This document shows, piece by piece, positions 1,089 to 27,929 of a stretch of DNA of 64,000 nt. Position 1 is the stretch's first letter. Every line of letters starts with the position of its first letter. The stretch covers positions 1-64,000 of the forward strand of contig CAIXKE010000066.1 in assembly GCA_903919975.1 (NCBI GenBank). The letters are read 5' to 3'. The notes beneath the pieces are model-generated. The model was not told where the DNA came from and did no database searches. It worked only from the letters and a program-made list of their open reading frames with translations. The DNA is from Akkermansiaceae bacterium (GTDB taxonomy: Bacteria > Verrucomicrobiota > Verrucomicrobiia > Verrucomicrobiales > Akkermansiaceae). Both the position numbers and the translations under genes were made by a program.

Positions 1089-1243
1089 TCCCCGGAGTTA
1101 ATGGGTTTCCTCCGGGATCCCAAGGTGCCACCGACTGGAGGGTCGGCGGCACCTTCATCGGTCCGCTTGTCACCTCTGGATGCGCAATGAAAAGTCTTCG
1201 AAGAAATTGCGGCCCGTATCCCCGCACTGCGATTTTCCTTCAA

Positions 1244-3133
1244 ATGAACAAAACGAAACCAAAAATCACATCAGGATGGCTACTGCCATTGGGCGGCTGG
1301 ATTATGCTGCAAGGGCTGGCGCTGGCGCAAACCCCATCCACCATCTCACTAACAGCCAATCCGCTCGCATCCCTGCAAGCCCGCATCCTCCAGGCGAAAC
1401 CTTCCGTCGTTCTCGCCGATGGAAAAATCGCCGCTGACGTCATCGTCGAGGGAAGCTGGAGTGATGGCACTTGGTCTGGCAGCGTGCGCAACACCTCCGG
1501 GAAGCCGCAGTTCATTCGCGAGGTCGTCTTGTTTGAACTGGATCACCATCTGCCCGCCGAGACTCCGGTGTATGGCGAATCGTTCCAAATGCTGGCGCAG
1601 ATCACCGGCAACCTCGCCCAGCCCGAGGATCTCGGTGCCTACCCGGACCGCACACACTACCGGATCCCCGAACCTGATGGCTACCGGACCGCATCGGGCT
1701 TGCTCACCATTTCGCCAGCACGCGATGCATCGCTCGCCCTCGCCTTCACCTCCTGCAACAAGTTCGTCGGCCGGATCGGCTTCAATGCAAGCCGTGTGAA
1801 AGGCCATCTGGATACCGAAGGGCTCACCCTGGCACCGGGGGCCACATGGAAGTTGGAAAACTTCGGAGTCTTCACCGGGTCTAACCGCGATGAGACGCTT
1901 GAGGCGGTGGCGGTGAAAATCCAACAGCATTACCCTCGCCCGTTGCCCGCCAAACCACCCACCGGCTGGTGCTCGTGGTACACGTTCTACGAGGAAGTCA
2001 CGGTGCCGGACATCGAGCGCAACCTAGCGTTCTCCAAGGAAAACCTCCCGCAACTCCGCTACATCCAGATTGACGATGGCTATCAATCCAAGATGGGCGA
2101 TTGGCTGGAAACCGGCAAAGCCTTCGGTGGCAACATCCAGAATGTCCTCAAAAAAATCAAGTCCGCCGGTTTCGAGCCCGCGATCTGGGTGGCCCCGTTC
2201 ATCGCCGAAAAAACCTCCGCCATTTTCCAACAACACCCGGACTGGTTCGTCAAAGACAGCGCTGGCAATCCGCTCGACTCCAGCACCATCGGCTTCGGCG
2301 GCTGGAGATGCGCCCCGTGGTATGTGCTCGATGGCACTCACCCGGAAGTCCAAAAGCACCTTGAGCATGTCTTCAAAACCATGCGCGAGGAATGGGGCGT
2401 CACCTATTTCAAACTGGACGCCAACTACTGGGGCGCGATCCACGGCGGTGTCCATCACAACCCGGATGCCACCCGTATCGAAGCCTATCGCCAAGGCATG
2501 GCCGCCATCCAAAAAGGCGCGGGCACCTCGTTCATCCTCGGCTGCAACGCGCCGATCTGGCCGTCGCTCGGCCTGGTCGATGGCATGAGGACCTCGGGCG
2601 ATATCAACAATGATTGGAAATCCATCAAAGGCTGCGCCTTGGAAAACCTCTCACGCGCCTGGCAAAATGGCAAACTCTGGTGGAATGATCCCGATTGCAT
2701 CCTGCTAACCGAAAACACCCAGAAAAACATCAGGCACAACCTGCCCCCCAAGGATCCGACGCTCACGGAAAATGAGTTCAAGCTGCACGCCGCATCCATC
2801 CGGGCCAGCGGCGGCATGGTACTCAGCGGCGATGAAATGCCACAGATCCGGGCGAATCGCTTAAAGGTGCTCGAGAAGTTGCTCGCGCCCACCGGCAAGG
2901 CCATGCACTTCGCCAGCCCGGGATTTCCGGTAGGCCGGGTCACCCTGAGCCCCCAAATGGAAGAAGTCGCCCTGTTCAATTGGGGCGATACTCCCCTCAC
3001 CCGGTCCTTTGCAACGGAGGTGGGCTCAACGATCACCGATATCTGGACTGGAAAATCCAGGAAAGCCGAGGGCATCACCACCACCTTTGAAATACCGCCC
3101 CGCTCGGCGATTCTGCTAGAAGTCCGGAAATAG
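1244..3133 (+). CDS. secreted alpha-galactosidase, GH36/GH27-like
   Basis: The protein has 629 residues from the ATG at 1244. I chose this start because it opens a signal peptide (MNKTKPK, hydrophobic core, LALAQ); an in-frame ATG at 1187 would add 19 unlikely residues. An N-terminal beta-rich domain precedes a TIM barrel with the clan GH-D motifs GWCSWYTFYEEV, YIQIDDGYQ and PAIWVAPF. The likely nucleophile is D392 in YFKLDANYW and the likely acid/base is D453 in RTSGDINNDW. The C-terminus is a small beta domain. The expected reaction is release of terminal alpha-galactose, or a related alpha-linked sugar, in the periplasm or outside the cell. GH29 follows 60 bp downstream on the same strand, consistent with a joint role in side-chain removal. 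Confidence 0.85.
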   Translation: MNKTKPKITSGWLLPLGGWIMLQGLALAQTPSTISLTANPLASLQARILQAKPSVVLADGKIAADVIVEGSWSDGTWSGSVRNTSGKPQFIREVVLFELDHHLPAETPVYGESFQMLAQITGNLAQPEDLGAYPDRTHYRIPEPDGYRTASGLLTISPARDASLALAFTSCNKFVGRIGFNASRVKGHLDTEGLTLAPGATWKLENFGVFTGSNRDETLEAVAVKIQQHYPRPLPAKPPTGWCSWYTFYEEVTVPDIERNLAFSKENLPQLRYIQIDDGYQSKMGDWLETGKAFGGNIQNVLKKIKSAGFEPAIWVAPFIAEKTSAIFQQHPDWFVKDSAGNPLDSSTIGFGGWRCAPWYVLDGTHPEVQKHLEHVFKTMREEWGVTYFKLDANYWGAIHGGVHHNPDATRIEAYRQGMAAIQKGAGTSFILGCNAPIWPSLGLVDGMRTSGDINNDWKSIKGCALENLSRAWQNGKLWWNDPDCILLTENTQKNIRHNLPPKDPTLTENEFKLHAASIRASGGMVLSGDEMPQIRANRLKVLEKLLAPTGKAMHFASPGFPVGRVTLSPQMEEVALFNWGDTPLTRSFATEVGSTITDIWTGKSRKAEGITTTFEIPPRSAILLEVRK

Positions 3134-3193
3134 GGAATACACCTCAGATTCTCATCATCACCCACCCTTGAAACACTTTTGATAGAAATGACC

Positions 3194-5032
3194 ATGAAAA
3201 ACAGCAACCTGCGCTCCACCCTGGCCTCGATACTCACTTTGAGCGCCGCTTCATCACTTGCTCTTCACGCCGCGGATTCGATGGATAAGATGTGGGGCGA
3301 TTCCACCACCAAGGATGGCGTCGAATCCAGCGAACGCGCCGCGCTGCTGCGGGATGGCAACTATGGCATGTTCATCCACTGGGGCCTCTATTCCAACCTT
3401 GGCGGGCAATGGAAGGATCAAACGTTCTATGGCATCGGCGAATGGATCAAGCGGCAGATGAAGATCTCCGATGAGGAATACATGGGACAGGCCAAGGATT
3501 TTAATCCAAGTGAGTTCGACGCCAAGGAAATCGTCCGCATCGCCAAGGAAGCCGGCATGAAGTACATCGTGATCACCTCGAAACACCACGAGGGCTTCGC
3601 CATGTTCAAGTCCGCGCACGCATTCAACATCGTGGATGCCACGCCATTCCAACGCGACCCGATGAAGGAACTCTCCGTCGCCTGCCGCGAGGCGGGACTC
3701 GGCTTCGGTTTCTATTACTCGCACTTCCAAGACTGGACCTCACCCGGCGCCGAGGGCGGCCCGAAGACCAACCCGGATGGCTCGCCCGCCACGTTTGATA
3801 AATATTTTCGTGATAAATGTTATCCGCAGGTGGATGAGATTTGTTCGAACTATGGACCGCTCGCATTCATCTGGTTCGACACGCCAGGCAGCATGCCGAA
3901 GGAGAACATCGTGGCCTTGGAGGAACTCGTCCGCAAAAAACAACCGAATGCCATGCTCAACTCGCGCATCGGCCAAGGCCTCGGCGACTATGAGAGCCTC
4001 GGCGACATGGAAGTGCCGCGCCGCAACCACCAGGGACTATGGGAAACCCCGGACACCACCAATGACTCATGGTCCTATGCCTGGTATGACCAGAACTGGA
4101 AGACACCCAAGGAAATCCTTCACCGCCTTGTTGCCACGGTCGGCCGTGGCGGCACTTATCTCCTCAACGTCGGCCCGGATGGCACAGGCCGCATTCCCGC
4201 CCCCGCCGCACGCTATCTGGCCGAAGCCGGGCAATGGGTAAAACAACATCCCGGCGCGGTCTATGGTGCCAGCGCCTCGCCATGGGGCGTCGCCCAGCCA
4301 TGGGGGGACATCACCAGAACCGGCAACACCTTGAATGCGGTGGTCTTCGATTGGCCTGCTGATCGCAAAATCCATCTCTCCGGCTTGGTTGGAAAAATCG
4401 ACAGCGTCACCCTGCACCAGCAAAATGGCAACCGGCTCCCGCTACCCGCTTCCAAATCCGGATCCTGGACGGTGATCGATGCCACCGCCGCCGATGCTGC
4501 GACCGTTGCCTCGTTGGCAGGCCTGATCGAAATCAAGCTCGCCTCCCCCGCCAAGGTGGATCCAACGCCCGGCATCCATCCTAACATCCCGACCATGCTC
4601 TACGGCGAGTTCGCGTCCGCCCGCAACGCCGAATCGAAAGTCATCAACTGGATGGAGAAATTCGGCGAATGGAAATTCGCCCATCAGATCAGCGAATGGA
4701 AGTCCGGTGGCGTGGCCGAATGGAATGTCGATGTCGCCGCCGCTGGGGATTATTTTGTGGAGCTCACCTACAAGGGTACCGAGCGCCCGGTATGGGCCGT
4801 CACCACCTCGGAAGGCACCAAGATCCAAAACCAGCAGGTCGCCAGCCCGGTTTACAAAGCCTATCCCACAGGCATCCTCCGCTTTGCCAAGCCCGGCAAA
4901 CACACGGTGAGCGTCTCGCTGGTCGCAGGTGACCCGAAAACATCCAGTCTCCAGGCCATCCGCTTTTCACCCGTCGGCGAGTCCACAGGAGAATCCAATT
5001 CAAACATCAGTCTCTCGTTAGATGGGAAATAG
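3194..5032 (+). CDS. secreted alpha-L-fucosidase, GH29
   Basis: The protein has 612 residues from the ATG at 3194; the ATG at 3188 is an equal alternative. The signal peptide ends near ALHAAD. The GH29 barrel is unmistakable: GMFIHWGLYS (about residues 58-67), KHHEGFAMF and NVGPDGTGRIP. The nucleophile is probably D229 in AFIWFDTPG. After the barrel and its beta-sandwich there is an extra domain of about 140 residues (from about 470) with SEWKSGGVAEWNVDVAAAG, resembling the carbohydrate-binding tails seen on Verrucomicrobia and Bacteroidetes fucosidases. It hydrolyses alpha-L-fucosyl linkages. The stop codon lies 11 bp inside the next gene, so the two are probably co-translated. Confidence 0.93.
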   Translation: MKNSNLRSTLASILTLSAASSLALHAADSMDKMWGDSTTKDGVESSERAALLRDGNYGMFIHWGLYSNLGGQWKDQTFYGIGEWIKRQMKISDEEYMGQAKDFNPSEFDAKEIVRIAKEAGMKYIVITSKHHEGFAMFKSAHAFNIVDATPFQRDPMKELSVACREAGLGFGFYYSHFQDWTSPGAEGGPKTNPDGSPATFDKYFRDKCYPQVDEICSNYGPLAFIWFDTPGSMPKENIVALEELVRKKQPNAMLNSRIGQGLGDYESLGDMEVPRRNHQGLWETPDTTNDSWSYAWYDQNWKTPKEILHRLVATVGRGGTYLLNVGPDGTGRIPAPAARYLAEAGQWVKQHPGAVYGASASPWGVAQPWGDITRTGNTLNAVVFDWPADRKIHLSGLVGKIDSVTLHQQNGNRLPLPASKSGSWTVIDATAADAATVASLAGLIEIKLASPAKVDPTPGIHPNIPTMLYGEFASARNAESKVINWMEKFGEWKFAHQISEWKSGGVAEWNVDVAAAGDYFVELTYKGTERPVWAVTTSEGTKIQNQQVASPVYKAYPTGILRFAKPGKHTVSVSLVAGDPKTSSLQAIRFSPVGESTGESNSNISLSLDGK

Positions 5033-9304: not shown

Positions 9305-9673
9305 ATGAAAGTATTCCGTATTACCTCCCTCATCCGTTCGTTTCGGTGCGCTTCGCACACCGACTCTGATGCCAAACCCATGGCCAGCACCGGGCTCGGC
9401 TTGCTCCTAGCGCTGCTAACCCTATTGCCCGCAGTCAATGCGGCAGAACCGGTAGCACCGCCCGCCCCGTTTGGGCCCGCACCGCTGCTCACCGAATTTG
9501 CCAAGACCGCGCAGATTACCTTTGTGGACATCGGCGCGAAGACGCTCGCCCCCGACGGCACGATGCCCCGGGAGATCGCGGGAGATTACTGTCACCCGAC
9601 CGAAAAAGGATATCAAATTTGGGCTGACGCGATCCAACCGTTGATCGCGGGGCCTGGTTTTCCCGGATTTTAA
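9305..9673 (+). CDS. internally deleted SGNH/GDSL hydrolase remnant
   Basis: Only 122 codons. The N-terminus has a signal-like segment (LGLLLALLTLLPAVNAAE) and is joined directly to what is normally the extreme C-terminus of platelet-activating-factor-acetylhydrolase-type SGNH enzymes: TFVDIGAKTLAPDG and HPTEKGYQIWADAI, the last holding the catalytic His block. The middle of about 150 residues, including the GDS nucleophile and the Gly and Asn blocks, is missing, yet the frame is intact. It should be inactive as a hydrolase. It may be a remnant or an assembly artefact. It lies 30 bp after the BD-FAE-like gene. Confidence 0.7.
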   Translation: MKVFRITSLIRSFRCASHTDSDAKPMASTGLGLLLALLTLLPAVNAAEPVAPPAPFGPAPLLTEFAKTAQITFVDIGAKTLAPDGTMPREIAGDYCHPTEKGYQIWADAIQPLIAGPGFPGF

Positions 9674-9786: not shown

Positions 9787-12700
9787 ATGAAACTGTATGC
9801 TCTTTTACTCGCGTTACTCACCACTTTGGGCGCTCCCACCCTCTTCGCGGAAGGCCCGACGGAAATCACTTCCGGACAGATGTCGCTGAAATTCACTGCC
9901 GAAGGAAAACCCAAATCCTTCAAGGTTGGAGACAAAGAGCTTCTTGACGAGCGGAACCCCGGCGACGGCTTTGAAATTCAAGGCTTCGCTTATAGTTTTG
10001 GGAGTCCCTCGGCCCTACGCATCAAGGATTTGAGTTATGATGGCAATGCATTGGTAGCGAGTATTGGCGCCAATCTACGGGTCACCTTGGAGGTCAAAAA
10101 ATCCGACCGCTATATCGCCTTTATGATTAGTCGGGTCGAGGGGCTTCCACTTAAAAATCGGCTGGGGCTTCGGTTTAATATGAACGTCGCCGACACGGTG
10201 AAGTCATTGCCCCTGGATGCGGCCACCCAGACTTCGCCTAGGGGTTGCGATATCCGCTGGCCCTGGTTGTGGATGCGTTCCGACACCGTTCCTATGGGTA
10301 GCTTCGCCCTTTATGATTCCGCAACGGAACAAGACGCCGCTGCTTTATTTCTGCATATTTGTCAGACAGAAAACCTCGCCAAGTCTGCCGACCTCAAGGG
10401 TGAGTGGACTTGGGAGTCGGCCAGGCGTTTTTTTGCCGCCCGCCAGGCCCAGTGGGCGGACTCCAATCTGGCCGAATTAAAAGCGGCATCCAGCCCTTCA
10501 ACCGGACCGGCCGCTGAAATCATATCGAAAAAAATCCAATTGAAGTTTTCCCCCGCCGGCAAACCGGTCTCCTTCATAATCAACGGCAGCGAGTCAATTA
10601 ACGCCAAGGATCCGGGTGCCGGCTTCGAGCTCTGTGGTTACGATTATGCCGAAGGCAAGCGGTTAAGCTTCCCCCTCAACCACCTACATTATGATGGAAA
10701 AAAGCTGACGGCATCGAATGGCCGCAAGGCCAAGGTTGTCTTTGATCTCGCCGCCACCGATCGCTATCTCACGTTCAAAATAAAAAGTCTGGAGGGGATT
10801 TCGAAGGAGAGCCGTCTCTGGCTTCAATTCCGTATGAACACCTCGGCGAAAACCAAGGCTTTGGCCCTCGACTATATGTGCGGGGTAGCCAAGCAGGGCA
10901 ACTCAATCGCGATTAACTGGAACTGGCTTTGGGATGACTCGGCCGGTAATCCGCTGGGCGGCTTTGCCCTCTATGCACCGACTAGTGGGGCGGACGAGGA
11001 CGAGACCCTACTTCATCTTTGGGCGAACGCAGGTCTGCCTCACCCCAAAATCAAAGGAGCGTGGAACCTCGAAACCGCCAGAAAATGGCTGGCCGACTGG
11101 CAGTCCCAATTTGCCGATGTGAGCAAAATGGTGATTTCCGCCAAAACCAATGCCGAGCTCTATGCGCTGGCCGACTATGCAAGCACGATGGACATTAAGC
11201 GCCTCTATATGCACACCGATACCTGGCGGGGTGAATACTGGCCGAATAAATACAGCTTTCTCCATCTCAACCCAGCTACCTTCCCAAATGGCGAGGAAGA
11301 TTTCCAGAAGTTCGCCCGCTATGCCCGCTCCAAGGGACTGGGGCTGACGATCCACGATGTGAGCTGTTCCATCGGTAATCATGATCCCGATTATATCGCG
11401 GCAAAAATTGATCCCCGTCTCGCCAAATGGGTTCAAGGCACCTTGGCCCAGGCCGCTTCCGAGACCGACAAAACAATTTATTTCAAACCAAATCCGGGCG
11501 AGGAAATGGTGCTCACTGCCGACCGGAATGTGACCGGCCCTTCGCAGACCAGCCCCCAGAATAACATCAATACGATATGTATCGATAACGAATTAATCGA
11601 GGTCGGCCAGTTTACAGACACGGACAAGGAAATATGGATCCTCAAAAACTGCCGCCGGGGGCATCTGAAATCAACTCCCGAATCGCATGCGATCAAGGCC
11701 CCGCTCACCGGCCTGATTCGGCCCTATGGGCAGGTCTTTACCGCCAACAATGACACCACCTTGGTAGAAGAACTCGGTCGCCGCATGGCTGAATTCTACA
11801 ACCGTAATAACATCGTTCACTGCATTCAGGATAGCGCCGAATCACACACGGTGAATCATCCCTGGGGCTACGCCAAGTTTGCGCAAGCGGTCTATACGAA
11901 CTTAGATCATCCCACGACTAGTAATAATTCCGGCGGAACACCAATGCCGTGCCATTTTGAATATAAATTTAACAGTTCCAAAAAGGCCATGCGAACCAGT
12001 GCCGACTCCGATGACTCGATTCCGGACTCCCGCGATGAACCCGCATCACTGACGCTCACCGAAAGAAATGGACTGACCATTCCGCTGATGGTTGCACGCA
12101 ATGGACGACCTGCAACTTCGCCTTATGAGCTATTTTCGCTCGTCGGCAAGCCCGTTGCAGCCGGATTAAGAAGTATTGGGCTATATAAACCTGAGCCGAT
12201 GTTTGGGGTTACCTTGGAAACGCTCCAAAATCAGGGTCTGGCTGCCTACGCCACTGAGGTGGTCAGCACTTGGAAACAAGTGGGGCCGCTCCTGACTGAA
12301 GTGCAGCGCAAAGCGATTCTATCCAGCTCGGATCAGGTCATTTTTCGTGCCGCCAAAGAAAAGGGCCAGTTGAGCATTACCCCGCTGCGGATGCTCTCTC
12401 GGCCGGGGATCGATATCGATTGGAGGGAAGGTTCCGAATTTGGGCCGATCGTACCCCGCCAATATGTAAAAACCGGCGACAGCCTTGAAGTTGAAAATCC
12501 TTATCCCGAACAAGAGCCGGAATTTATTATTCGAGTGATGAACGCCTTCGACGTTTCTCCTAACGCCGCATTAAGGAATTTCGGACAAACCGTCTCCCGA
12601 AACAAGGACGGCCAAGCGATTGATAGCTATAATATTGGCGCCGGAATCGACGCAATCGAGGGTGGGAGAACCGCGGTGAAAACACCCATATCGCACACAA

Positions 12701-13443
12701 TTGATATCCAGCCTCTGGCCGAAAAAATCAAAAACAAAGGCGATCATACGTTCATTCAGGAAGGTAATGCGATCAGGATACAATTTAAAAACAAGCGGAA
12801 TGAAGCCGTTACCAACACCGAAAAGCTCCCCAATTGGACTTGCGCGTCGGACATGACCCAAGCCCGCGGTATTGGGCTCACGGTGAACGGCGACGGTAGC
12901 GGTGCGGTGCTGATCATTCAGCCCAACAGCCGAGGGCGGCGCGACTATATCGTTCCGCTGGATTTCAAGGGGGAACGCAACATAATCATTCCCTGTGGTG
13001 AAGCCGCCTGGGCCGATGTTCGCTGGGGTTGGAAAATGGAGACGAAAGGAAGTCAATATGGAGAACTTAAAAAGGTGTCCATGGCGATTGGAAAAGTCCC
13101 ACCTAAAACCCATGTGGATATTAAAATCAGCAATTTGAGGGTTCTCCCGGAAATTCCCACTGAAGTAACTAATCCGACTGTCAACATAAGCTCAGGGTCC
13201 ATGCAAATCACTGGGAAAGTTTCCAGTGATTCCTACCTCTGGTTTCAAGGCGGCGATACAGTCGGTGTTTATGATTTGAATTGGAAAAAAATATCGGATC
13301 TAGCTGTTAAAAAACAAAAATTCATTGCCCCAAAAGGACTCGTGAAACTTTCAATGGAATATAAGGATATTAAACCCGCACCCTGGCTGGAGTGGCAATT
13401 CTTTGTCAAAGACAACCCGATGATTCTTGAAGCAAAGAAATAA
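9787..13443 (+). CDS. large secreted protein, candidate uncharacterised glycoside hydrolase
   Basis: The 1218-residue protein has a clear signal peptide (MKLYALLLALLTTLG, cleavage near LFAEG). I do not recognise the family. Residues about 25-235 and 240-445 are tandem copies of one module: each begins with a KFxxxGKPxSF segment, has a D-R-Y motif (KSDRYIAF, ATDRYLTF), an RFNMN/QFRMN segment and ends in a W-x-x-x-A-R-(R/K) helix. The central part (about 450-800) has (beta/alpha)-like features with conserved-looking polar clusters, such as YMHTDTWRGEYW, LTIHDVSCSIGNHD and HCIQDSAESH (D682, E685). The C-terminal 300 residues look beta-rich. Context argues for a polysaccharide-acting enzyme. Its A+T content appears higher than that of the flanking GH genes, and the upstream spacer contains tatatataaa. 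Confidence 0.6.
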   Translation: MKLYALLLALLTTLGAPTLFAEGPTEITSGQMSLKFTAEGKPKSFKVGDKELLDERNPGDGFEIQGFAYSFGSPSALRIKDLSYDGNALVASIGANLRVTLEVKKSDRYIAFMISRVEGLPLKNRLGLRFNMNVADTVKSLPLDAATQTSPRGCDIRWPWLWMRSDTVPMGSFALYDSATEQDAAALFLHICQTENLAKSADLKGEWTWESARRFFAARQAQWADSNLAELKAASSPSTGPAAEIISKKIQLKFSPAGKPVSFIINGSESINAKDPGAGFELCGYDYAEGKRLSFPLNHLHYDGKKLTASNGRKAKVVFDLAATDRYLTFKIKSLEGISKESRLWLQFRMNTSAKTKALALDYMCGVAKQGNSIAINWNWLWDDSAGNPLGGFALYAPTSGADEDETLLHLWANAGLPHPKIKGAWNLETARKWLADWQSQFADVSKMVISAKTNAELYALADYASTMDIKRLYMHTDTWRGEYWPNKYSFLHLNPATFPNGEEDFQKFARYARSKGLGLTIHDVSCSIGNHDPDYIAAKIDPRLAKWVQGTLAQAASETDKTIYFKPNPGEEMVLTADRNVTGPSQTSPQNNINTICIDNELIEVGQFTDTDKEIWILKNCRRGHLKSTPESHAIKAPLTGLIRPYGQVFTANNDTTLVEELGRRMAEFYNRNNIVHCIQDSAESHTVNHPWGYAKFAQAVYTNLDHPTTSNNSGGTPMPCHFEYKFNSSKKAMRTSADSDDSIPDSRDEPASLTLTERNGLTIPLMVARNGRPATSPYELFSLVGKPVAAGLRSIGLYKPEPMFGVTLETLQNQGLAAYATEVVSTWKQVGPLLTEVQRKAILSSSDQVIFRAAKEKGQLSITPLRMLSRPGIDIDWREGSEFGPIVPRQYVKTGDSLEVENPYPEQEPEFIIRVMNAFDVSPNAALRNFGQTVSRNKDGQAIDSYNIGAGIDAIEGGRTAVKTPISHTIDIQPLAEKIKNKGDHTFIQEGNAIRIQFKNKRNEAVTNTEKLPNWTCASDMTQARGIGLTVNGDGSGAVLIIQPNSRGRRDYIVPLDFKGERNIIIPCGEAAWADVRWGWKMETKGSQYGELKKVSMAIGKVPPKTHVDIKISNLRVLPEIPTEVTNPTVNISSGSMQITGKVSSDSYLWFQGGDTVGVYDLNWKKISDLAVKKQKFIAPKGLVKLSMEYKDIKPAPWLEWQFFVKDNPMILEAKK

Positions 13444-14586: not shown

Positions 14587-17500
14587 ATGTCGCTGAAAGC
14601 ACATCCATTTCCACACCCTAAGGGCTTTGCCTTGGTCGTCACGCTCTCGCTTATGATCTTGCTGTCGGTCATCGCCGTGGGCTTGTTGTCGCTTTCGAGC
14701 ATCTCGCTGCGCGCCTCCACCCAAGGTCAGGCCATGGCAGTGGCGCAAGCAAACGCCAAACTCGCCATGATGCTGGCTTTGGGCGAACTACAAAAGAACG
14801 CTGGCCCCGACCAGCGCATCACCGCACGGGGAGATATTCTCGCCACCAACACCACCAACCCCCATTGGACCGGCGTTTGGAAAACCGGTACGAACCCGCT
14901 GGATGTCGGGGCACAACCCCAACGGACCACCAGTCTCGGTGCCAGCAACCCCACCGACACACAGAAAAGCACCAATGCCGTCTGGCTGGTCTCTGGCACC
15001 GCGCCCGACCCGCTGACCTTCAGCGGCACCACGACGGGTACCAATCCCACCGCTGTTGCCCTGGCGAAGAAGCTCGGTGCTGATTCGACAACCGTGATGG
15101 CGCCACTCGTGCCTATGCAATCCTCCAACGCCGGTCGCGGAGCCTATGCATACTGGGTTTCTGACGAGGGAGTGAAAGCCAAGGTGAATATCAAAGACCC
15201 TACGCTCAATGGCGACAGCAATGCGGTCGATCCCATCACCTCACTCGCCAAAAACCAACTCCACTTCGCAGCGCCGCAGGCAATGGCGGCACACAAGATC
15301 CTCCCCGACACCCTGGCCACAGACTTTAGGCAAGCCGCCAAAGTGGAGCAAGTTCTCACCCCCCAATCTCTGCCGCTGCTGCCGGCAGCCGCGCCCAGCG
15401 GCTATGTGAGCAACCGTTACCTCGCCGATGTCACCACCTACAGTTACGGAGTGCTGGCCGATGTGCGCAACGGCGGCCTGCGCAAGGACCTCACCGCCGC
15501 CTTTGAGGATACCGGGGCCACCGCCGCAACAAATTACGCCAAGCTCAATCCCAATAGCACCGCGAATGTTTATACAACCAGTGTGGATGGAATTCCCGCC
15601 ATCACGCCGACGAATCCGATGTTTACCGGGCTGCGCTGGTTAAATCTTTATTATTATTATAACCTCTATAAGGCCACCCTGCCGACCGTCAGCAATATGG
15701 GCGGGCTGACCACCCCAGCCCTTGCGGTCCGCCCAACCGGTATCGGCGACCCCAATCCCGCCACCAACCCGCGCCCCTACGCCGCCTCGATGCACGCCTT
15801 GGGGTGGAAGGAATCTAATTCTCCCGTCTTTGCGGCGCTCACCCCCGTTTGCCTGGGGCTGCGCTGGGATGTCGCCTTATCCACGCGAAATAGCGGAGTC
15901 GGCTATGTGCCGCGTTTGCATTACTACCCGCAGGTTGTTCTTTATAATCCCTTCACCATCGCCATTAAAAGCAGTAGTTTTTGCCTTAAGCGGTCGTTGC
16001 TGGCTTTGTTTGACAAATCAACATATTCAAGTCGGGATTTCGTTGAGCTGCAAATCGGGAGTGTGACCTATTCGGCCGCCATGAACCAAGCGAGCACGGG
16101 GTGGATTATGCTCCAAACCAAGATCAGTGAATCCAGCGATTTCGCCCCGGGGGAAATTCGCGTCTATGGACTGTCGCCGGAAACCACGAAAGACACGACA
16201 CCAGCAGTACCTGGACTATATAGGAACTTTAGTAACAGTATCTCGACCGCCAGCGGGTCCTTTAATGCAACGGGTGGTGGGCTGGTCTGCAAAGATTATA
16301 ACCCGGAATCGGGTAATGTCACCGATATGTTAAGGGTGATCAATTATGCCCCATACTCTCTCTCGTCGGGGACGGGGGGGGATTATGTCGAAATCCCGCC
16401 TCAACCCGACGGGCCAGTGACCGTCTCGCTGTCCAAATACGTCATGGGTGGGGTTTATAATGGGAGGTCGTATATTAAGTGCGGCCTCATTTGGCCAAAT
16501 GCGAGCAGTGGTGATCAGCGTCTTATGGAGGTGGGACAACCTGGCTCTTATGACACCGGCTCGGCAACCCTAGCGGGAGGCAAGCCATTCCCCGCCGTGA
16601 CGCCCTACACCACTACGCTGTCCAATTTGGATATCGCCAACGGCCACCCCATATTGCTCTGGAGTATTTATTTCCGCACCAAGGGCCTGAAAGGGGAGTC
16701 CTCAGGCTATACCAATTGTAAGGCGCATCTTCCGATCTTCATGGGCAACACTGAGGCGTTTAATGCCCAGAACGACAAGTTCTTCGCGCAATGCTGGGCC
16801 GAGTTGTATGTGCGCGATAGCAGCACCCAGTGGCAGCGCTACGATTTCACGAATCTTTTTGATATGAATCTCGGTGAGTCTCCCGCTAACCCTGAAATCA
16901 AAACCACGAGCTGGGGAAATCGGAGCACCGGGGTGGACGTGCCCGCGAACGTCGTTGGTTCGCCGGCGTCCTCGGTCGTACTTGCCGATGTGCCGATCCA
17001 ACCCTTGGTTTCGCTCGGCCAGTTTATGCACATGCGGCCATTTTATGCACAGTCGGTCGTTAATATCGGTTATGCGAACATGGGGTTTGGAACGATGTTC
17101 ACCGGCGGCTCCTACGCTAACCCCAGTGTGAAGCTGGATACGACGGTCTATGATTCCGGCTCCGCGAACGGTTACCAGGTCTCCAAGAGTTACCTTTTTT
17201 GCGACCACAGCTTTCTAGCCAACCAGGCGCTGTTCGATACTTATTATTTCTCCACGGTGCCCCCGGCCAGCTTGCCCACGGCCAATTCAAGCTCTCCCAA
17301 TGCACCCGATCCTATTTTACCGGTGCGCGCCTCGGTTTATCCCGAGAATTGGGTGGCTTTTAACGCCGCCAATCCGGCGGAAGGCGCATTGAAGGACTCA
17401 AGCATACCGTTCCTGAACTCGCGCATGGTTCCCTATCATGGAAACGGAACCGCCCCGACGATGGCCGACTTGCGCGATATGGATAAAGCGGCCGCCAACC

Positions 17501-18324
17501 TGCTGCTCAACGGGGCCTTTAACATCAACTCCACCTCGATCGACGCGTGGCGCACCTTGCTCTCCAGTTTGTCGGGCAATGACCTCAGTCTGTGGAACGC
17601 GAGCACCCAGTCGGAGGTCACCTTCAAGAGCAGCGACTTACAGAATCCAATCCCACGATTCTGGACGGCGACCGGCAATGCCAATCTAAACTCTGCCTGG
17701 TGCGGCGTGCGGGCGCTCTCCGACGCCGAAATCACCGAATTAGCCACCAAAATTGTAGCTCAGGTGAAACTACGCGGACCGTTCCTCTCCATGGCCGATT
17801 TCTTAAATCGTCGACTCGGTGACACCGCCAGCGCCTTGACGCTAACCGGGGCCCTGCAAGCGGCCATCCATAACACCTCCCCCGACATCAATGCCGTGGT
17901 CAAGGCGGCCGGGGAACAAGTGAGTGTGCCCAATGTTGCGCTGCCCTATTCGGCCACACCGATTGCCGCGAATATGCAATACGCCAACCTCACCCCCTGG
18001 AACACCGCCACGGGCATCCCGGGTTATTTGATGCAACAAGACCTGGTGCAGGCGTTTTCCCCGGTGATGGCCGCGCGCTCCGATACCTTTGTCATCCGCA
18101 CCTGCGGCCAGGCGCTCAACCCGACCACCCTCAAGGTCGAGGCCACGGCCTACGTCGAGGCGGTGGTCCAGCGGGTCCCCGACTACATAGAAGCCGATAA
18201 CGCGACTAGCGCGTTGGGTGCGGCGACGCCTCTCGCCAGTCTTACGAGTAGTTCGATTAATCAAAAATTCGGCCGCCGCTTCAAGATCATCTCCTTTCGC
18301 TGGCTTGCCCCCCAGGAAATCTAA
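14587..18324 (+). CDS. Verru_Chthon cassette protein A-like, pilin-type N-terminus
   Basis: The 1245-residue protein opens with a type IV prepilin-like segment: a short basic leader, KGFALVV with a Gly-Phe processing site, then about 20 hydrophobic residues (LSLMILLSVIAVGLLSL). This matches the Verru_Chthon cassette protein A family, known from Verrucomicrobiota and of unknown function, whose members are of about this size. The remainder is a long extracellular-type region rich in Ser, Thr, Asn and Tyr without enzyme motifs that I recognise. It is usually thought to be exported and assembled by type II/IV-pilus machinery; no such machinery or B-D cassette partners are seen here. The following small gene (10 bp gap) may be its partner. 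Confidence 0.75.
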   Translation: MSLKAHPFPHPKGFALVVTLSLMILLSVIAVGLLSLSSISLRASTQGQAMAVAQANAKLAMMLALGELQKNAGPDQRITARGDILATNTTNPHWTGVWKTGTNPLDVGAQPQRTTSLGASNPTDTQKSTNAVWLVSGTAPDPLTFSGTTTGTNPTAVALAKKLGADSTTVMAPLVPMQSSNAGRGAYAYWVSDEGVKAKVNIKDPTLNGDSNAVDPITSLAKNQLHFAAPQAMAAHKILPDTLATDFRQAAKVEQVLTPQSLPLLPAAAPSGYVSNRYLADVTTYSYGVLADVRNGGLRKDLTAAFEDTGATAATNYAKLNPNSTANVYTTSVDGIPAITPTNPMFTGLRWLNLYYYYNLYKATLPTVSNMGGLTTPALAVRPTGIGDPNPATNPRPYAASMHALGWKESNSPVFAALTPVCLGLRWDVALSTRNSGVGYVPRLHYYPQVVLYNPFTIAIKSSSFCLKRSLLALFDKSTYSSRDFVELQIGSVTYSAAMNQASTGWIMLQTKISESSDFAPGEIRVYGLSPETTKDTTPAVPGLYRNFSNSISTASGSFNATGGGLVCKDYNPESGNVTDMLRVINYAPYSLSSGTGGDYVEIPPQPDGPVTVSLSKYVMGGVYNGRSYIKCGLIWPNASSGDQRLMEVGQPGSYDTGSATLAGGKPFPAVTPYTTTLSNLDIANGHPILLWSIYFRTKGLKGESSGYTNCKAHLPIFMGNTEAFNAQNDKFFAQCWAELYVRDSSTQWQRYDFTNLFDMNLGESPANPEIKTTSWGNRSTGVDVPANVVGSPASSVVLADVPIQPLVSLGQFMHMRPFYAQSVVNIGYANMGFGTMFTGGSYANPSVKLDTTVYDSGSANGYQVSKSYLFCDHSFLANQALFDTYYFSTVPPASLPTANSSSPNAPDPILPVRASVYPENWVAFNAANPAEGALKDSSIPFLNSRMVPYHGNGTAPTMADLRDMDKAAANLLLNGAFNINSTSIDAWRTLLSSLSGNDLSLWNASTQSEVTFKSSDLQNPIPRFWTATGNANLNSAWCGVRALSDAEITELATKIVAQVKLRGPFLSMADFLNRRLGDTASALTLTGALQAAIHNTSPDINAVVKAAGEQVSVPNVALPYSATPIAANMQYANLTPWNTATGIPGYLMQQDLVQAFSPVMAARSDTFVIRTCGQALNPTTLKVEATAYVEAVVQRVPDYIEADNATSALGAATPLASLTSSSINQKFGRRFKIISFRWLAPQEI

Positions 18325-22901: not shown

Positions 22902-25337
22902 GTGTTAAAAAAATTTATCTTAGTCGCCCTTGTTACCGCGAATCATCTCCATGGTGCAGAGGAATCCCTACCTCCGCTGATAGATTGCAAGGCCCCGCAA
23001 ACCTTTGAGGCTCTTTGGGCAAGTTACGACCCACGCAAGGAACCCTTGGAAACCGAAGTCTTGAAAGAGTGGGAGGAAGACGGGGTGGTGCTGCGCGTCA
23101 TCCGCTATCAGATCGGAGTGTTCAAAGGCCAAAAAACCATGATGGCCGCCGTCTATGGATTTCCCAAAGGAGGCAGCAAACTTCCAGGCTTGGTGCAGAT
23201 TCATGGCGGCGGGCAGTTCGCGGATTACAAAGCCCCGCTCACCAATGCCAAACGCGGTTATGCCACCATTTCCCTCGCCTGGGCTGGCCGGATCAGCGCT
23301 CCCGGCTACGCGGTGGACAGTGATATCGTCAACCTCTTCATCGAAGGCAAAACGGGCGATCCCACCTACAAGATGACAACTGACTGGAGAGGTTTCAACG
23401 GCTATCATGCGGTCGATCGTAAGAATCGGCCCCCAGCGGTTTTTCCCGAATGGAAACTCGATGAAGTCGCCGACTCGCCGCGCAACTCCACTTGGTTCAT
23501 GTGGGAAATGGGTGCACGCCGAGCGTTGACCTATCTTGAACAGCAACCCGAAGTGAACGCGGAGAAACTCGGCGTTTACGGTCACTCCATGGGCGGCAAG
23601 CTCACCGTCATGACCGCTGCCGCCGATTCCCGGGTGAAAGCCGCGGCCCCATCGTGCGGTGGGGTCAGCGCACGGTCGGAGAGCAGCGTGGCTCCCGCGC
23701 CAATCGATGACGGGGTTTCCCTTTCACAGATCAGCTGCCCGATCATCTTCCTGAATCCAGCCAATGATTTCCACGGCCAAATCGATGATCTGCAAAAAGC
23801 TCTCACCGAAATCAAAAGCAAGGACTGGCGGGTCACCTGCTCAGCCCACGGCAACCATCAGGATCTAGCGGAATTCGAAGTCGCCACCCAGCTGTGGTTC
23901 GACCAATACCTAAAAGGCTCCTTCCAATTCCCCGCGACTCCGACCACGCGCTTGGAGTTAAAGACGGCCAATGCTGCCCCCTGTTTCACGGTCACTCCGG
24001 ATGCTTCCAAAGCCATCCAATCGGTGGACATTTATTATACCCAGCAAGGCCGCCCAGTGGGAACGAAGCACGGCATGTTCCATACGATGAACCGTTTCTG
24101 GCATCGCGCCAAAGCAACCCGCAATGGCGACACCTGGAGCGCGGAATTGCCCGTGCTTACCATCGAAAAGCCATTGTGGGTCTATGCCAATGTGCTTTAT
24201 CCGTTGGACCAACCCGTCACGGGAGCAGGTTACTATTACGGAAAGTATACAACTCGGGCGTTCAATATTTCGTCCAGCATGGCGATTATCTCCCCCGCTG
24301 AGTTAGAAGCTGCCGGAGTCCGGGCGACAGCGCAACCTTCCCTGTTGATCGAATCCTTTGATGCCGGCTGGGAAAAAGAGTGGTTCACATACGATGCGTC
24401 CAAATGGGCCCGTTCCACTCATAAAGTTTATGATGCCAAATGGCAGGCACCGGAGGGCGCGAAACTCGCGTTCTCGGTCCGCAGCGCACAGGCTAACAAA
24501 CTAGTCGTGAGCGTGGACGATCGAGCCAGCGAGGTGGCCGTCCAAGGCGGCAATCAGTGGCAGAAGGTGGCACTGTCGTTGAATGACTTCCGCGACGCCA
24601 AGGCGAACACCATGAAAGACTGGAAAGGCCTCAAAACCCTTCGCCTGTCGGGCAAAGAGACACTCAAGGCCAAGGTGGACGGCGTGGAAAAAACGGTCGC
24701 CTTGGGTGGCGAATGGGTAGGGGCGCCCCCCGAGTTCAAGGACCTGCAGTGGGTGGAGACGGTGCCGCAACCCGAGGCTAATTTAGAAGCGGCTGAGATC
24801 AAAAAAATCATGGCCCGGGTGGCGGACTGGCAGATCGCCCATCCCCCGAAGAGCAGCTACGATCATGGCCCTGACCGCTGGACCATGGGGGCGCTGTATG
24901 TGGGCATGTTCCTATGGAGCCAGATTAACGGCGATGATAAATACCTGAACTATCTGAAATCTCAAAGCGAAACGAGCGGTTGGAAGCTGGGGCCGGCGCA
25001 ACATTATGCCGATGATCATTGTGTCGGTGCCCTCTACCTTGAGCTTTACCATAGAGAACAGGATCCCCGGATGATCGCCGCGTTGAAAACGCAATTCGAT
25101 GAGATCATACAAAAGCAGCCGACGAAGGCGCAACCGATCGGAGCAAATCCTCAGAAAGTGACGGCCGATATGACCGAGGTGTATGGGGTCGGCGCGTTTC
25201 TCCTGGCCGGCCTCGAAGTGTTAAAAATGGAACACGGGCGCTACCCCAACCTTGTTCGACGACAACTGAATAAGCGGCCTGCGGTTCCCAAGCCGATGCC
25301 GCAACCACGACCGATCTGCATGCGCGAATCGCAATAA
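22902..25337 (+). CDS. secreted esterase (large paralogue 4) fused to a shortened GH105-like domain
   Basis: The 811-residue protein probably starts at GTG 22902, opening a signal peptide (MLKKFILVALVTANHLHGAE). Residues up to about 620 are the esterase and tail of this family: oxyanion VQIHGGGQ, elbow GHSMGG (S229), acid loop FLNPANDFHGQID and His in AHGNHQD. From about residue 630 a different domain begins: RVADWQIAHP, WTMGALYVGM, then YADDHCVGALYLELYH (D704, D705), as at the N-terminus of GH105/GH88 unsaturated uronyl hydrolases. After about 735 it jumps to QPIGANPQK and EVYGVGAFLLAG, the usual end of such proteins. About 200 residues that normally lie between are absent, so the GH105 part is probably inactive. 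Confidence 0.78.
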   Translation: MLKKFILVALVTANHLHGAEESLPPLIDCKAPQTFEALWASYDPRKEPLETEVLKEWEEDGVVLRVIRYQIGVFKGQKTMMAAVYGFPKGGSKLPGLVQIHGGGQFADYKAPLTNAKRGYATISLAWAGRISAPGYAVDSDIVNLFIEGKTGDPTYKMTTDWRGFNGYHAVDRKNRPPAVFPEWKLDEVADSPRNSTWFMWEMGARRALTYLEQQPEVNAEKLGVYGHSMGGKLTVMTAAADSRVKAAAPSCGGVSARSESSVAPAPIDDGVSLSQISCPIIFLNPANDFHGQIDDLQKALTEIKSKDWRVTCSAHGNHQDLAEFEVATQLWFDQYLKGSFQFPATPTTRLELKTANAAPCFTVTPDASKAIQSVDIYYTQQGRPVGTKHGMFHTMNRFWHRAKATRNGDTWSAELPVLTIEKPLWVYANVLYPLDQPVTGAGYYYGKYTTRAFNISSSMAIISPAELEAAGVRATAQPSLLIESFDAGWEKEWFTYDASKWARSTHKVYDAKWQAPEGAKLAFSVRSAQANKLVVSVDDRASEVAVQGGNQWQKVALSLNDFRDAKANTMKDWKGLKTLRLSGKETLKAKVDGVEKTVALGGEWVGAPPEFKDLQWVETVPQPEANLEAAEIKKIMARVADWQIAHPPKSSYDHGPDRWTMGALYVGMFLWSQINGDDKYLNYLKSQSETSGWKLGPAQHYADDHCVGALYLELYHREQDPRMIAALKTQFDEIIQKQPTKAQPIGANPQKVTADMTEVYGVGAFLLAGLEVLKMEHGRYPNLVRRQLNKRPAVPKPMPQPRPICMRESQ

Positions 25338-25373: not shown

Positions 25374-27929
25374 ATGAATACCTCCCAAACGATCAACGCC
25401 CTAGCACTTGCATGTGTTTTTTTTGTCGCCGGCGCGCGCGCCCAGACGCCCCCGACTTCGCCCGCCCAGCAGCCGCCCCCATTGCCCGCACTTGAACGCC
25501 TGCCGGTTGACGCGGGTAAAAACTCCCTGTGGAGCATGCCATGGCAGGACCGGGCGTCCGTCACCGGCAGCCCGTCCCGACCGGATGGAAAGCTGAACCT
25601 CTGGTATCGCGCGCCTGCCGCGGAATGGTATGAGGCGCTTCCGCTCGGCAACGGCCGCCTCGGCGCTATGCTGTTTGGTGGCGTCGCCGACGAGTGCATT
25701 CAACTCAATGTGGATTCGCTCTGGGACGGCGGACCTAAAGATGTCAGCAACCCGGCCGCCTTGAAGGTGCTCCCGGAGGTGCGTCGGCTGATGTTTGAGG
25801 GCAAGAATCCCGAAGCCACCAAACTCGCGTGCGCCAACATGATGGGTCTGCCGCCGCGCATCAAATCCTATCAGACACTTGGCGAACTTTACATCGAAGC
25901 ACCGGGGGTAAGCACCGCTACCGATTACCTCCGCAGCCTCGATCTGGAAACCGCCGTCGCGAAAGTCTCCTATCAATCCGGCGGGGTGAAATTTTCCCGC
26001 GAAGCATTCAGTTCCGCTCCCGCCAATGTCATCGCCATCCGCTATACGGCGAGCAAACCGGGTTCGATCACCCTGCGGATGACGCTCAAGCGTGCAATGG
26101 ATGCCCATTGCGCAGCCGATCCAGCGAACCCGAAGGCGATCCAACTCATCGGGCAGATCAATCGTGGCAAGGAGCCGATCCCGGGCGTGCGCTTCAACGC
26201 TTCCGTTCTCGCGCAGAACGAGGGTGGCCGCGTCACCAACACCGGCGGCATTCTAACCGTTGAGGGTGCCGATTCCCTCACCCTGCTGATCGCGGGCGCA
26301 ACCAACTATCCAGGCATGGGCAAGGGGGCCCCCGATCCCGGCCTTGATCCCGCGACGAGCACTGCTGCCACCCTGGCAAAAGTCCCCGCCTATGCAAAAC
26401 TGCGCAGCGATCACATCTCCGATTACCAAACGTATTTCAGTCGCGTCTCGCTGGACCTTGGTGCCGACTCGCCCGACGTGGAGAACCTGCCAACCCATGA
26501 GCGGCTCAAGCGGTTCAAGACCCTCAAGACAAACCAGTCCGACCCCGGCTTGGTCGCGCTCTATTTTCAATACGGCCGCTACCTCCTAATCAGTTGTTCC
26601 CGGCCCGGCTCATTGCCCGCCAACCTTCAGGGAATCTGGGCATGGAAGATTAATAATATTTGGAGCTCGGATTTTCATACCAACGTCAACGTCCAGATGA
26701 ATTACTGGATGGCCGAACAGACCAATCTCGCGGAGCTGCATCTGCCGCTCTTCGACCTTATGGACAGCCTGGTAGGACCCGGCACGCAGACGGCAAAGGT
26801 CCAATATGATGCGAACGGCTGGGTCGTCCACCATCTCACGGATGCTTGGGGATACACCGCCTGCGCCAATGGCGTGTGGGCGATCTGGCCGATGGGTGCG
26901 GCCTGGTTGGCTCGTCACCCGTGGGAACACTACCAATATACGGGCGACACTGCGTTTCTTAAAAACCGCGCATGGCCACTCATGAAAGGAGCGGCACGCT
27001 TTATTTTGGATATTCTCGTCGTGGCACCGGCCGGCAGCCCGGTGGCGGGCAAACTGGTCACCAACCCGTCCTACTCGCCGGAAAACCACTTCATTCTGGC
27101 CGACGGAAAAACGGAGGGTTCGTTAAGTTATGGAGTGACGATGGATCTCCAGATCATTCAGGACCTGCTCTCGAACTGCATCGATGCCAGCAAGATTCTA
27201 AAGATCGATCCCGAGTTCCGGAAGGAATGTGAAATAGCGCTGGCCAAGCTCGCTCCTATGCGTATCAGCCCGGCAACCGGACGGATCATGGAATGGATCG
27301 AGGATTACAAAGAACGTGATCCCCGCCACCGGCACACCTCCCACCTCTACGGTCTGCACCCGGCCAATTCGATCACCAAGGCGACCCCCGACTTCTATCA
27401 GGCGGCACGCAAGGTGTTGGAGGGACGTGGCGATGGCGGGACCGGCTGGAGCATGGCTTGGAAGATCAACATGTGGGCCCGGCTCGGCGATGGCGACCAT
27501 GCCTACCTGCTGCTCACGAATCTGCTGAAAAAGTGCACGCTGCCTAACCTCTTCGACACGCACGCGCCATTCCAGATCGACGGCAACTTCGGGGCCACCG
27601 CCGCCGTTACCGAAATGCTCGTGCAAAGCCAGATCCGCATGGGCGGCAAGGAGCCGATTCCCTACCGGCAGGAATTCCAAATCGATCTCCTGCCCGCTTT
27701 ACCAAGCGCCTGGCCTACCGGCCGTGTCGTCGGCCTCCGCGCGCGCGGAGGATTCACCGTCGATCTCGATTGGAAAGACGGGAAGCTCGTCGCAGCCCGT
27801 GTTCTATCCACTCTCGGCGGTCCGCTCCATTTACGCCTGGGCGACAAAATCGCCAGCTTTGAAACGAAACCCGGACAATCGATCGTCGTGGACGGATCAC
27901 TCGCTGCAAAACGGCTCCAACAGAAATAG
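25374..27929 (+). CDS. secreted alpha-L-fucosidase (or alpha-L-galactosidase), GH95
   Basis: The 851-residue protein has a signal peptide ending near ARAQT. The GH95 hallmarks run in order: the N-terminal beta-supersandwich (WYRAPAAEWYEALPLGNGRLG, LNVDSLWDGG), then the (alpha/alpha)6 barrel with NLQGIWAW. N437 and N439 lie in HTNVNVQMNYW, the putative general acid E570 in SYSPENHF, and D736 in QIDGNFGAT. These correspond to the catalytic Asn/Asn/Glu/Asp set described for bifidobacterial AfcA. Hydrolysis is inverting, on alpha-1,2-L-fucosyl or L-galactosyl groups. Together with GH29 upstream it gives the locus two fucosidase folds. It precedes an esterase remnant and a two-component system. 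Confidence 0.92.
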   Translation: MNTSQTINALALACVFFVAGARAQTPPTSPAQQPPPLPALERLPVDAGKNSLWSMPWQDRASVTGSPSRPDGKLNLWYRAPAAEWYEALPLGNGRLGAMLFGGVADECIQLNVDSLWDGGPKDVSNPAALKVLPEVRRLMFEGKNPEATKLACANMMGLPPRIKSYQTLGELYIEAPGVSTATDYLRSLDLETAVAKVSYQSGGVKFSREAFSSAPANVIAIRYTASKPGSITLRMTLKRAMDAHCAADPANPKAIQLIGQINRGKEPIPGVRFNASVLAQNEGGRVTNTGGILTVEGADSLTLLIAGATNYPGMGKGAPDPGLDPATSTAATLAKVPAYAKLRSDHISDYQTYFSRVSLDLGADSPDVENLPTHERLKRFKTLKTNQSDPGLVALYFQYGRYLLISCSRPGSLPANLQGIWAWKINNIWSSDFHTNVNVQMNYWMAEQTNLAELHLPLFDLMDSLVGPGTQTAKVQYDANGWVVHHLTDAWGYTACANGVWAIWPMGAAWLARHPWEHYQYTGDTAFLKNRAWPLMKGAARFILDILVVAPAGSPVAGKLVTNPSYSPENHFILADGKTEGSLSYGVTMDLQIIQDLLSNCIDASKILKIDPEFRKECEIALAKLAPMRISPATGRIMEWIEDYKERDPRHRHTSHLYGLHPANSITKATPDFYQAARKVLEGRGDGGTGWSMAWKINMWARLGDGDHAYLLLTNLLKKCTLPNLFDTHAPFQIDGNFGATAAVTEMLVQSQIRMGGKEPIPYRQEFQIDLLPALPSAWPTGRVVGLRARGGFTVDLDWKDGKLVAARVLSTLGGPLHLRLGDKIASFETKPGQSIVVDGSLAAKRLQQK

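Follow-up and report, generated by a model that had tools for sequence, protein, structure and literature searches.

The α-galactosidase superfamily, taken here to comprise GH27, GH31 and GH36 and to be related in fold or in sequence to GH97, GH101 and GH129, appears to hold the closest described counterparts of the protein reported here. The signature motif is K-x-D in GH27 and GH36 and W-x-D in GH31; in GH13 it is G-x-R-x-D, with an arginine two residues before the β4 aspartate, and the catalytic residues of GH101 are an aspartate on β4 and a glutamate on β5. As stated in excerpts of the papers concerned, the nucleophile of the superfamily is an aspartate at the C-terminus of β4 (PMC1249566), and in GH97 a GH27-like barrel serves inverting as well as retaining enzymes (PMC2670981), the inverting ones lacking the β4 aspartate (PMC1249566, PMC2670981). 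Hypothetical hydrolase families have been designated GHL1–GHL15 (Naumoff 2011, cited in an excerpt of PMC5352709).

The gene that we describe occupies positions 9787–13443 (+ strand) of the window, a stretch of 64,000 nucleotides of Akkermansiaceae DNA. The frame is open and encodes 1218 amino acids, as had been claimed from the sequence, and an orthologue in another genome is 79% identical across residues 4–1215. Over 1218 aligned codons the two genes differ 176, 128 and 440 times at the first, second and third codon positions; this is therefore a real gene under selection at the protein level. By inspection of the translation the N-terminus resembles a signal peptide (ending LFA-EG), which supports the proposal that the protein is exported. 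Its features, together with two neighboring genes, are as follows.

9787..9849, + strand: signal-peptide-like N-terminus (residues 1–21), read off the translation
9850..10464, + strand: N-terminal β module copy 1 (residues 22–226), 37% identical to copy 2 and matched by the family profile
10486..11124, + strand: N-terminal β module copy 2 (residues 234–446), from the model of residues 239–1218; aligns with the GH36 N-terminal β domain
11125..12324, + strand: (β/α)8 barrel, predicted catalytic domain (residues 447–846), from two models and fold comparison
11353..11355, + strand: H523 near the end of β3, conserved in 38/39
11419..11706, + strand: Rcc01698_C-like insert after β3, in the position of a "domain B" (residues 545–640), from profile matches and strands in the barrel model
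11830..11832, + strand: D682, predicted nucleophile, conserved in 39/39; last residue of strand 676–682 in the barrel model
11839..11841, + strand: E685, acidic in 36/39
12127..12129, + strand: E781 at the start of α6, possible second acid, acidic in 38/39
12337..12546, + strand: antiparallel β domain after the barrel (residues 851–920), from the model of residues 239–1218
12784..13161, + strand: putative CBM11-like β-sandwich (residues 1000–1125), by extension from distant members
13168..13440, + strand: C-terminal β-sandwich (residues 1128–1218), from the model; common to family members
3179..5032, + strand: GH29 α-L-fucosidase (context), PF01120 E 6.6e-74
25374..27929, + strand: GH95-type hydrolase (context), PF22124 E 6.1e-174

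The protein belongs to a family that is present in 37 of the 387 genomes searched from the same phylum; two Embleya (Actinomycetota) records hold distant members, and identity to the window protein (P0001) falls as low as 16%. Among the papers listed in literature searches none describes the family, as judged by title or the start of the abstract. The window protein matched no Pfam or NCBIfam model above the cut-off, and among PDB sequences nothing scored better than E 0.47. When members were scanned against the same model collections, the barrel region gave no match except for the insert and one weak match to GH97 (PF10566, E 0.0057, in 1 of the 39 aligned members). The genes are therefore likely to be labelled hypothetical.

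Searches with individual family models gave the same picture. For GH36 (PF02065) and GH31 (PF01055) there was no match above the curated cut-off in P0001 and none at E ≤ 0.01 in the 39 barrels; Melibiase gave a single match (E 0.075) among 14 aligned members. GH101 (PF12905) matched none of the 14 members or 39 barrels, and GH129 (PF11308) and GH29 (PF01120) matched neither these nor P0001. Comparison by hhalign with small local sets (three GH101, seven GH129, one GH31 and the Melibiase-like protein of the window) gave probabilities of at most 1.3%, and at most 0.7% for the GH101 and the GH129 sequences. Thus, the statement of the initial annotation that the protein could not be placed in a known GH family holds against the known GH family models of Pfam. 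An α-L-rhamnosidase label (NF041573), carried by 3 of the 39 sequences, was rejected: the matches (residues 714–898 of L021, 1040–1209 of L037 and 1056–1209 of L038) lie beyond the barrel, score far below the cut-off and cover only part of positions 115–305 of the 1028-position model, and we read them as a common jelly-roll-like domain. CBM11 (PF03425) matched three of seven proteins in one Pfam scan (two above the cut-off) and 1 of 14 in another, with no match in the window protein itself. A profile built from the 39 barrels did reach GH36 galactosaminidase (E 1.1e-4) and GH27 α-galactosidase (E 2.4e-4), the best unrelated match being a designed TIM barrel (0.005); the match to GH36 and GH27 spans only β2, α2 and β3 and does not extend to D682.

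Structure prediction yielded a model of residues 239–1218 (mean pLDDT 80) and a model of residues 440–870 (mean pLDDT 82.9), the stretch before β6 being of low confidence. The predicted models place a β module ahead of a (β/α)8 barrel, where GH31 and GH36 have a β-sandwich domain. In a Foldseek comparison of the larger model with the PDB, the best E value was to the endo-α-N-acetylgalactosaminidases of GH101 (5a59, 2zxq; 8e-13), with GH36 at best 1.6e-8, GH129 7e-7 and GH31 1e-6, all with low TM-scores and large rmsd. VIA aligned the same model with GH36 at Z 13.3 over 358–422 residues including the N-terminal module (rmsd ~6 Å; the alignment with GH36 chains such as 9awt begins at model residue 5) and with GH13 amylases at Z 13.1 over 267 barrel residues (3.8 Å). 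With the barrel model alone, GH36 1zy9 scored Z 15.7 (265 residues, 3.8 Å) and GH13 amylases Z 15.6 (274 residues, 3.8 Å), and in Foldseek pyruvate kinases ranked first, probably because they too have a β-barrel insert after β3. The absence of GH29 and other fucosidase structures from the best 50 of either VIA list is not evidence of difference. On these models, module and barrel together would lie near GH101, GH36, GH129 and GH31, and GH13 amylases would fit the barrel itself equally well. The TIM-barrel-like core that had been proposed from clusters of polar residues is thus supported, as a glycosidase-type barrel, by structure prediction and fold comparison.

The residues named as catalytic candidates fared unequally. 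D682 and E685 are the residues claimed, and residue 461, put forward as an acidic candidate, is leucine. D682 is aspartate in all 39 aligned sequences and is the only fully invariant carboxylate of the barrel core outside the insert; its equivalent, like that of H523, is kept in the Embleya protein. The E685 column is largely acidic, with 33 glutamates and 3 aspartates, but holds 3 glycines. We read D682 as lying at the end of β4, the position of the conserved superfamily aspartate, although it would fall on β5 if strand 639–646 were counted as a barrel strand. The residue two positions before it is Y in 16 sequences, E in 14, H in 5, I in 2, V in 1 and D in 1, and K, W or R in none of the 39. 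No acid is conserved among the 39 sequences just after β6 (767–771). E781, 15 residues past β6 and behind the low-confidence stretch that precedes that strand, occupies a column of 19 glutamates, 19 aspartates and 1 histidine.

The nearest comparison is with GH36 (Thermotoga maritima 1zy9/5m0x; Flavonifractor plautii 9awt/8x1b), which shares the N-terminal β domain followed by a (β/α)8 barrel, sequence similarity at β2 and β3 (FP-G...D) and an aspartate at the position read as β4. In contrast, identity in the fold alignments is 7–11%, and the present family lacks K-x-D and a conserved acid just after β6; the window protein has the insert domain after β3 and extra C-terminal modules. GH101, for all its Foldseek E value, finds no Pfam or hhalign match in the family; its β5 acid, by alignment with EngBF, falls near N713 of P0001, a position with glutamate in 14 of the 39 members.

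Of the 39 barrels, 15 have an insert after β3 that matches Rcc01698_C (PF23666) at E ≤ 0.01. Against a cut-off of 27 bits, the window protein scored 14.2, paralogue C15 25.2, and paralogue C111 29.3 in the genome search and 26.5 as a whole ORF. Rcc01698_C comes from the baseplate "megatron" protein of a gene transfer agent (excerpt of PMC7296036); the similar insert of the window protein, by comparison, lies inside a glycosidase-like barrel. E602, R624 and G625 are invariant (39/39) and H634 nearly so (38/39), a degree of conservation that at first suggested a catalytic role. The closest PDB match to an insert profile was a domain of phage tip-attachment protein J (8rk3), at a non-significant E of 0.3, in which the DE, RG, T and H pattern recurs; a tblastn search of a phage collection with one insert gave no match. 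Catalysis by the insert was rejected, as the phage tail domain has the same pattern and PF23666 also derives from a tail protein, and we treat these four residues as a probable structural signature of the module.

We consider it probable that the window protein is secreted and acts as a glycosidase, most likely a retaining one, and that it represents an uncharacterised family in or beside the α-galactosidase superfamily. As to activity, mechanism and substrate, we infer that D682 would attack the anomeric carbon of an α-type glycoside and that the resulting covalent intermediate would be hydrolysed, with a second carboxylate, for which E781 and E685 are candidates, as acid/base. The N-terminal β modules and C-terminal β-sandwiches would most likely shape or bind the polysaccharide, and the enzyme may act with the GH29, GH95 and esterase products of the locus in stripping an acylated polysaccharide that contains fucose. 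A more specific proposal, which we offer tentatively, is that the protein founds a new GH family of the superfamily, one that has lost K-x-D and the β6 proton donor, relies on E781 or E685 as acid/base instead and uses a phage/GTA-baseplate-type domain as a "domain B" framing the active site. The earlier suggestion of a possible new GH family stands insofar as no Pfam or NCBIfam family model fits; it remains a prediction, with E781 and E685 no more than candidates for the second catalytic acid.

Could the barrel instead be of GH13 type (clan GH-H), with domain B after β3, a β4 nucleophile aspartate and α-glucans as substrates? The tie with GH36 on the barrel and the insert after β3 would suit this, but the arginine two residues before D682 is missing throughout, the N-terminal β module aligns with GH36, HMMER places GH36 and GH27 above neopullulanase (absent among the matches listed in later profile searches), and the glycosidases encoded nearby (GH29 and GH95) are of non-amylolytic families; we regard a GH13-type barrel as quite unlikely. 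An inverting glycosidase of the same fold, comparable to the inverting half of GH97, in which the general base would be D682 or a different acid, would accord with the coexistence of both mechanisms in GH97, with the lack of a conserved canonical β6 acid and with the one weak PF10566 match. It is nonetheless unlikely, given that inverting GH97 members, in the excerpts cited above, lack the β4 aspartate, whereas D682 is invariant. Lastly, several β modules and a phage-tail-like insert, none catalytic in itself, and a lone invariant carboxylate in the barrel core outside the insert would be in keeping with a non-enzymatic carbohydrate-binding or scaffold protein built on a degenerate TIM barrel. 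Against this, D682 never varies, even in sequences only 16% identical to the window protein, E685, H523 and E781 change in very few of them, and the members examined lie in loci with degradative enzymes, making a scaffold role very improbable.

A secreted glycosidase, the reading that we favor, would be in suitable company. The surroundings had been described as polysaccharide-degrading, and Pfam confirms this: besides the GH29 and GH95-type genes, the window holds a Melibiase/GH31-like protein, several esterases and a partial GH88. (The neighbor at 14587–18324 was rejected as a relative of the window protein, the best two-sequence E being 2.8.) The locus has in common with the PUL-1 type GH29 locus of Akkermansiaceae/Puniceicoccaceae (excerpt of PMC8857213) a GH29 gene amid PF07859-type hydrolases, and Verrucomicrobiota are reported there to specialise in the use of polysaccharides rich in fucose and rhamnose. 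Using a home-made four-sequence profile (E ≤ 1e-15) and at least 7.5 kb around each member, we found GH29 near 6 of 15 distinct member loci, the flanks being unequal in length; 39 of 45 member-bearing genomes were searched, of which 35 have GH29 and 4 do not. A GH29 companion is therefore common without being required, and glycosidase genes tend to cluster in any case. The family is spread through the phylum with several members in fucosidase loci; having a candidate nucleophile that can be tested and a proton donor still to be assigned, it offers a definite object for the search for a new activity and tests how far the catalytic set of the superfamily can vary.

Finally, the two tandem β-rich N-terminal modules noted at the outset are borne out: residues 21–233 align with 234–450 over 206 columns at 37% identity (E 1e-44), and copy 1 is recovered as a separate domain match to the family profile (i-E 6.9e-36). 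The tandem arrangement is present in only 4 of the 39 members used (a few of whose ORFs are cut by contig ends) and is therefore a feature of a subfamily, outside the family core. In a FastTree phylogeny of the modules, the node joining copy 2 with copy 1 of G490 and G396 had a support of 0.40, and the single modules of G275 and G394 grouped with copy 1 (support 0.92), so that the tree may at most suggest that the modules duplicated early, with subsequent loss.

The 1218-residue protein P0001 proposed by the initial annotation is encoded by an open reading frame (9787-13443, + strand), and an orthologue with 79% identity across residues 4-1215 is present in an Akkermansiaceae MAG (by coordinates, contig C105 of genome G055). 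The two genes differ at 176, 128, and 440 first, second, and third codon positions, respectively, over 1218 aligned codons, as is expected for a conserved protein. The N-terminus, as read from the translation, looks like a typical signal peptide, in keeping with the suggested export, and the tandem N-terminal modules are evident as well (37% identity between copies, E 1e-44). The module is duplicated in four members (P0001, its G055 orthologue, and proteins of genomes G490 and G396) of an alignment of 39, whose identity to P0001 runs from 80% down to 16%; some fragmentary or weaker matches to a 13-row family profile, and the sequences L027, L056, and L057, lie outside this alignment. In the G490 protein an F5/8-type domain sits between the two copies.

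Like the initial annotation, we could not place P0001 in a known glycoside hydrolase family: its single Pfam match scored 14.2 bits (cut-off 27), NCBIfam yielded no match at E <= 0.1, and a sequence search of the PDB gave nothing better than E 0.47. The genome of P0001 holds two paralogues (contigs C15 and C111), and family matches at E <= 1e-5 were found in nine genomes out of a set of 195 relatives that includes this genome itself. With the 13-row profile, a sample of 387 genomes from the phylum yielded a match at E <= 1e-10 in 37. Distant members also occur in two Embleya (Actinomycetota) records, and the one examined, an unannotated 798-aa protein on an Embleya plasmid (L088:2972-5368), scored 4e-42 against the family profile and retains the Asp and insert signature described below.

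AlphaFold2 modeled residues 239-1218 with a mean pLDDT of 80 and residues 440-870, using 39 rows, with a mean of 82.9. Foldseek ranked GH101 first for the longer model (E 8e-13), followed by GH36, GH129, and GH31, all with low TM-scores. VIA placed GH36 chains highest (Z 13.3, about 6 A) in alignments that begin in the N-terminal module, so that the duplicated module aligns with the GH36 pre-barrel beta domain; GH13 amylases came next (Z 13.1, 3.8 A), their alignments being confined to the barrel. For the barrel alone, GH36 (Z 15.7, 3.8 A, 265 residues) and GH13 (Z 15.6, 3.8 A, 274 residues) were tied. We resolve this tie toward GH36 because the barrel profile matched a GH36 galactosaminidase (E 1.1e-4) and the rice GH27 alpha-galactosidase (2.4e-4), both from beta-2 to beta-3 only, as against 0.005 for a designed TIM barrel that served as a noise marker. 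Foldseek with the barrel alone ranked pyruvate kinases first, and we think that this likeness, and that to GH13, is aided by a common beta-barrel insert after beta-3:

Residues 545-640 of P0001: Rcc01698_C-like stretch

Within the insert, E602 and R624 (39/39) and G625 are invariant, and C622 (37) and H634 (38) nearly so. The insert matches Rcc01698_C at E <= 0.01 in 15 of the 39 barrels; for the C111 paralogue the score was 29.3 bits in one search and 26.5 in another (cut-off 27). One published account assigns Rcc01698_C to the gene-transfer-agent baseplate "megatron" protein as one of its domains (PMC7296036). Against the PDB, the top match was a domain of the phage tip-attachment protein J, which has a common signature with the insert (E 0.3, not significant). 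We considered the invariant residues as a catalytic set, but they make more sense as a signature of the module itself. Rcc01698_C (PF23666) also exceeds its cut-off, at 31.1 bits, in an 843-aa frame of a genome of the same genus (G018:C56:21315-21494); this genome was absent from the family holders in the 195-genome search at E <= 1e-5.

Taking MVIS, RLYM, LTIH, and HCIQD as beta-1 to beta-4, D682 would lie in the model at the end of beta-4, the nucleophile position of the alpha-galactosidase superfamily, where a published description puts the nucleophile of GH27 and GH31 (PMC1249566). Of the acids originally proposed as candidates, D682 is Asp in all 39 members and in the Embleya protein, E685 is acidic in most (E 33, D 3) but Gly in three, and residue 461 proved to be Leu rather than Asp. 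The His at position 523 (H523), towards the end of beta-3, is kept in 38 members, and the E781 column is divided (E 19, D 19, H 1). The D682-x-x-E685 pattern is reminiscent of the D-M-N-E of GH31. Other superfamily marks are absent: the residue at -2 from D682 varies (Y16/E14/H5/I2/V1/D1), and the alignment has no conserved acid just after beta-6. Thus, with D682 at the end of beta-4 but the other marks missing, P0001 appears to belong in or beside the superfamily and outside each of its families. The proposal of a new family is supported as far as predicted fold and conservation allow, the D461 candidate apart, and we rate the family as an uncharacterised one with a putative catalytic set that departs from the superfamily's on a known glycosidase fold. 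These departures make it worth bench study.

Among seven distant members scanned, three have a CBM11-type domain (two above cut-off) and two have LamG. By alignment to such members, residues 1000-1125 of P0001 should be a CBM11-like domain; the Pfam scan gave no direct CBM11 match in P0001. Three family members (L021, L037, and L038) have an extra jelly-roll-like domain matching the N-terminal part of an alpha-L-rhamnosidase model, which could lead annotation astray.

The polysaccharide-degrading surroundings noted initially are borne out by the neighbors:

1187-3133, + strand: divergent Melibiase/GH31-like protein, 648 aa, a second divergent member of that group in the locus
3179-5032: GH29
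9305-9673, + strand: 122-aa ORF just upstream of the P0001 gene, C-terminal end only of the GDSL-lipase profile
14587-18324, + strand: 1245-aa protein, no Pfam match
22902-25337, + strand: esterase-like part, then partial GH88 (profile positions 3-112 of 352), in one ORF
25374-27929: GH95

Esterases of the AXE1, GDSL, and BD-FAE types flank the P0001 gene on both sides. The 122-aa ORF, whose match (E 1.7e-4, profile positions 135-178 of 178) falls short of the cut-off, is possibly a truncated esterase, the ORF with partial GH88 is either a fusion or a truncated gene, and the N-terminus of the 1245-aa protein weakly matches T2SS GspK (E 0.0027). Among 15 places examined, whose flanks were unequal, six have GH29 near the family gene: the window, the loci of the two paralogues, the two G055 loci, and the one in genome G275. 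GH29 is present in 35 of the 39 member-holding genomes searched (45 known) and absent from four. Most likely, P0001 would take an alpha-linked sugar off a fucose-containing acylated polysaccharide. As in the "PUL-1" type GH29 loci of Akkermansiaceae and Puniceicoccaceae, described as rich in uncharacterised PF07859 hydrolases (PMC8857213), PF07859 proteins lie on either side of the P0001 gene.

Finally, we note that the G055 locus also has a Melibiase-matching protein (L087:624-2735) and, directly downstream, a DUF5703_N protein (L006:13662-15911) with a partial GH95 catalytic match (38.1 bits, cut-off 27; profile positions 87-230 of 408).
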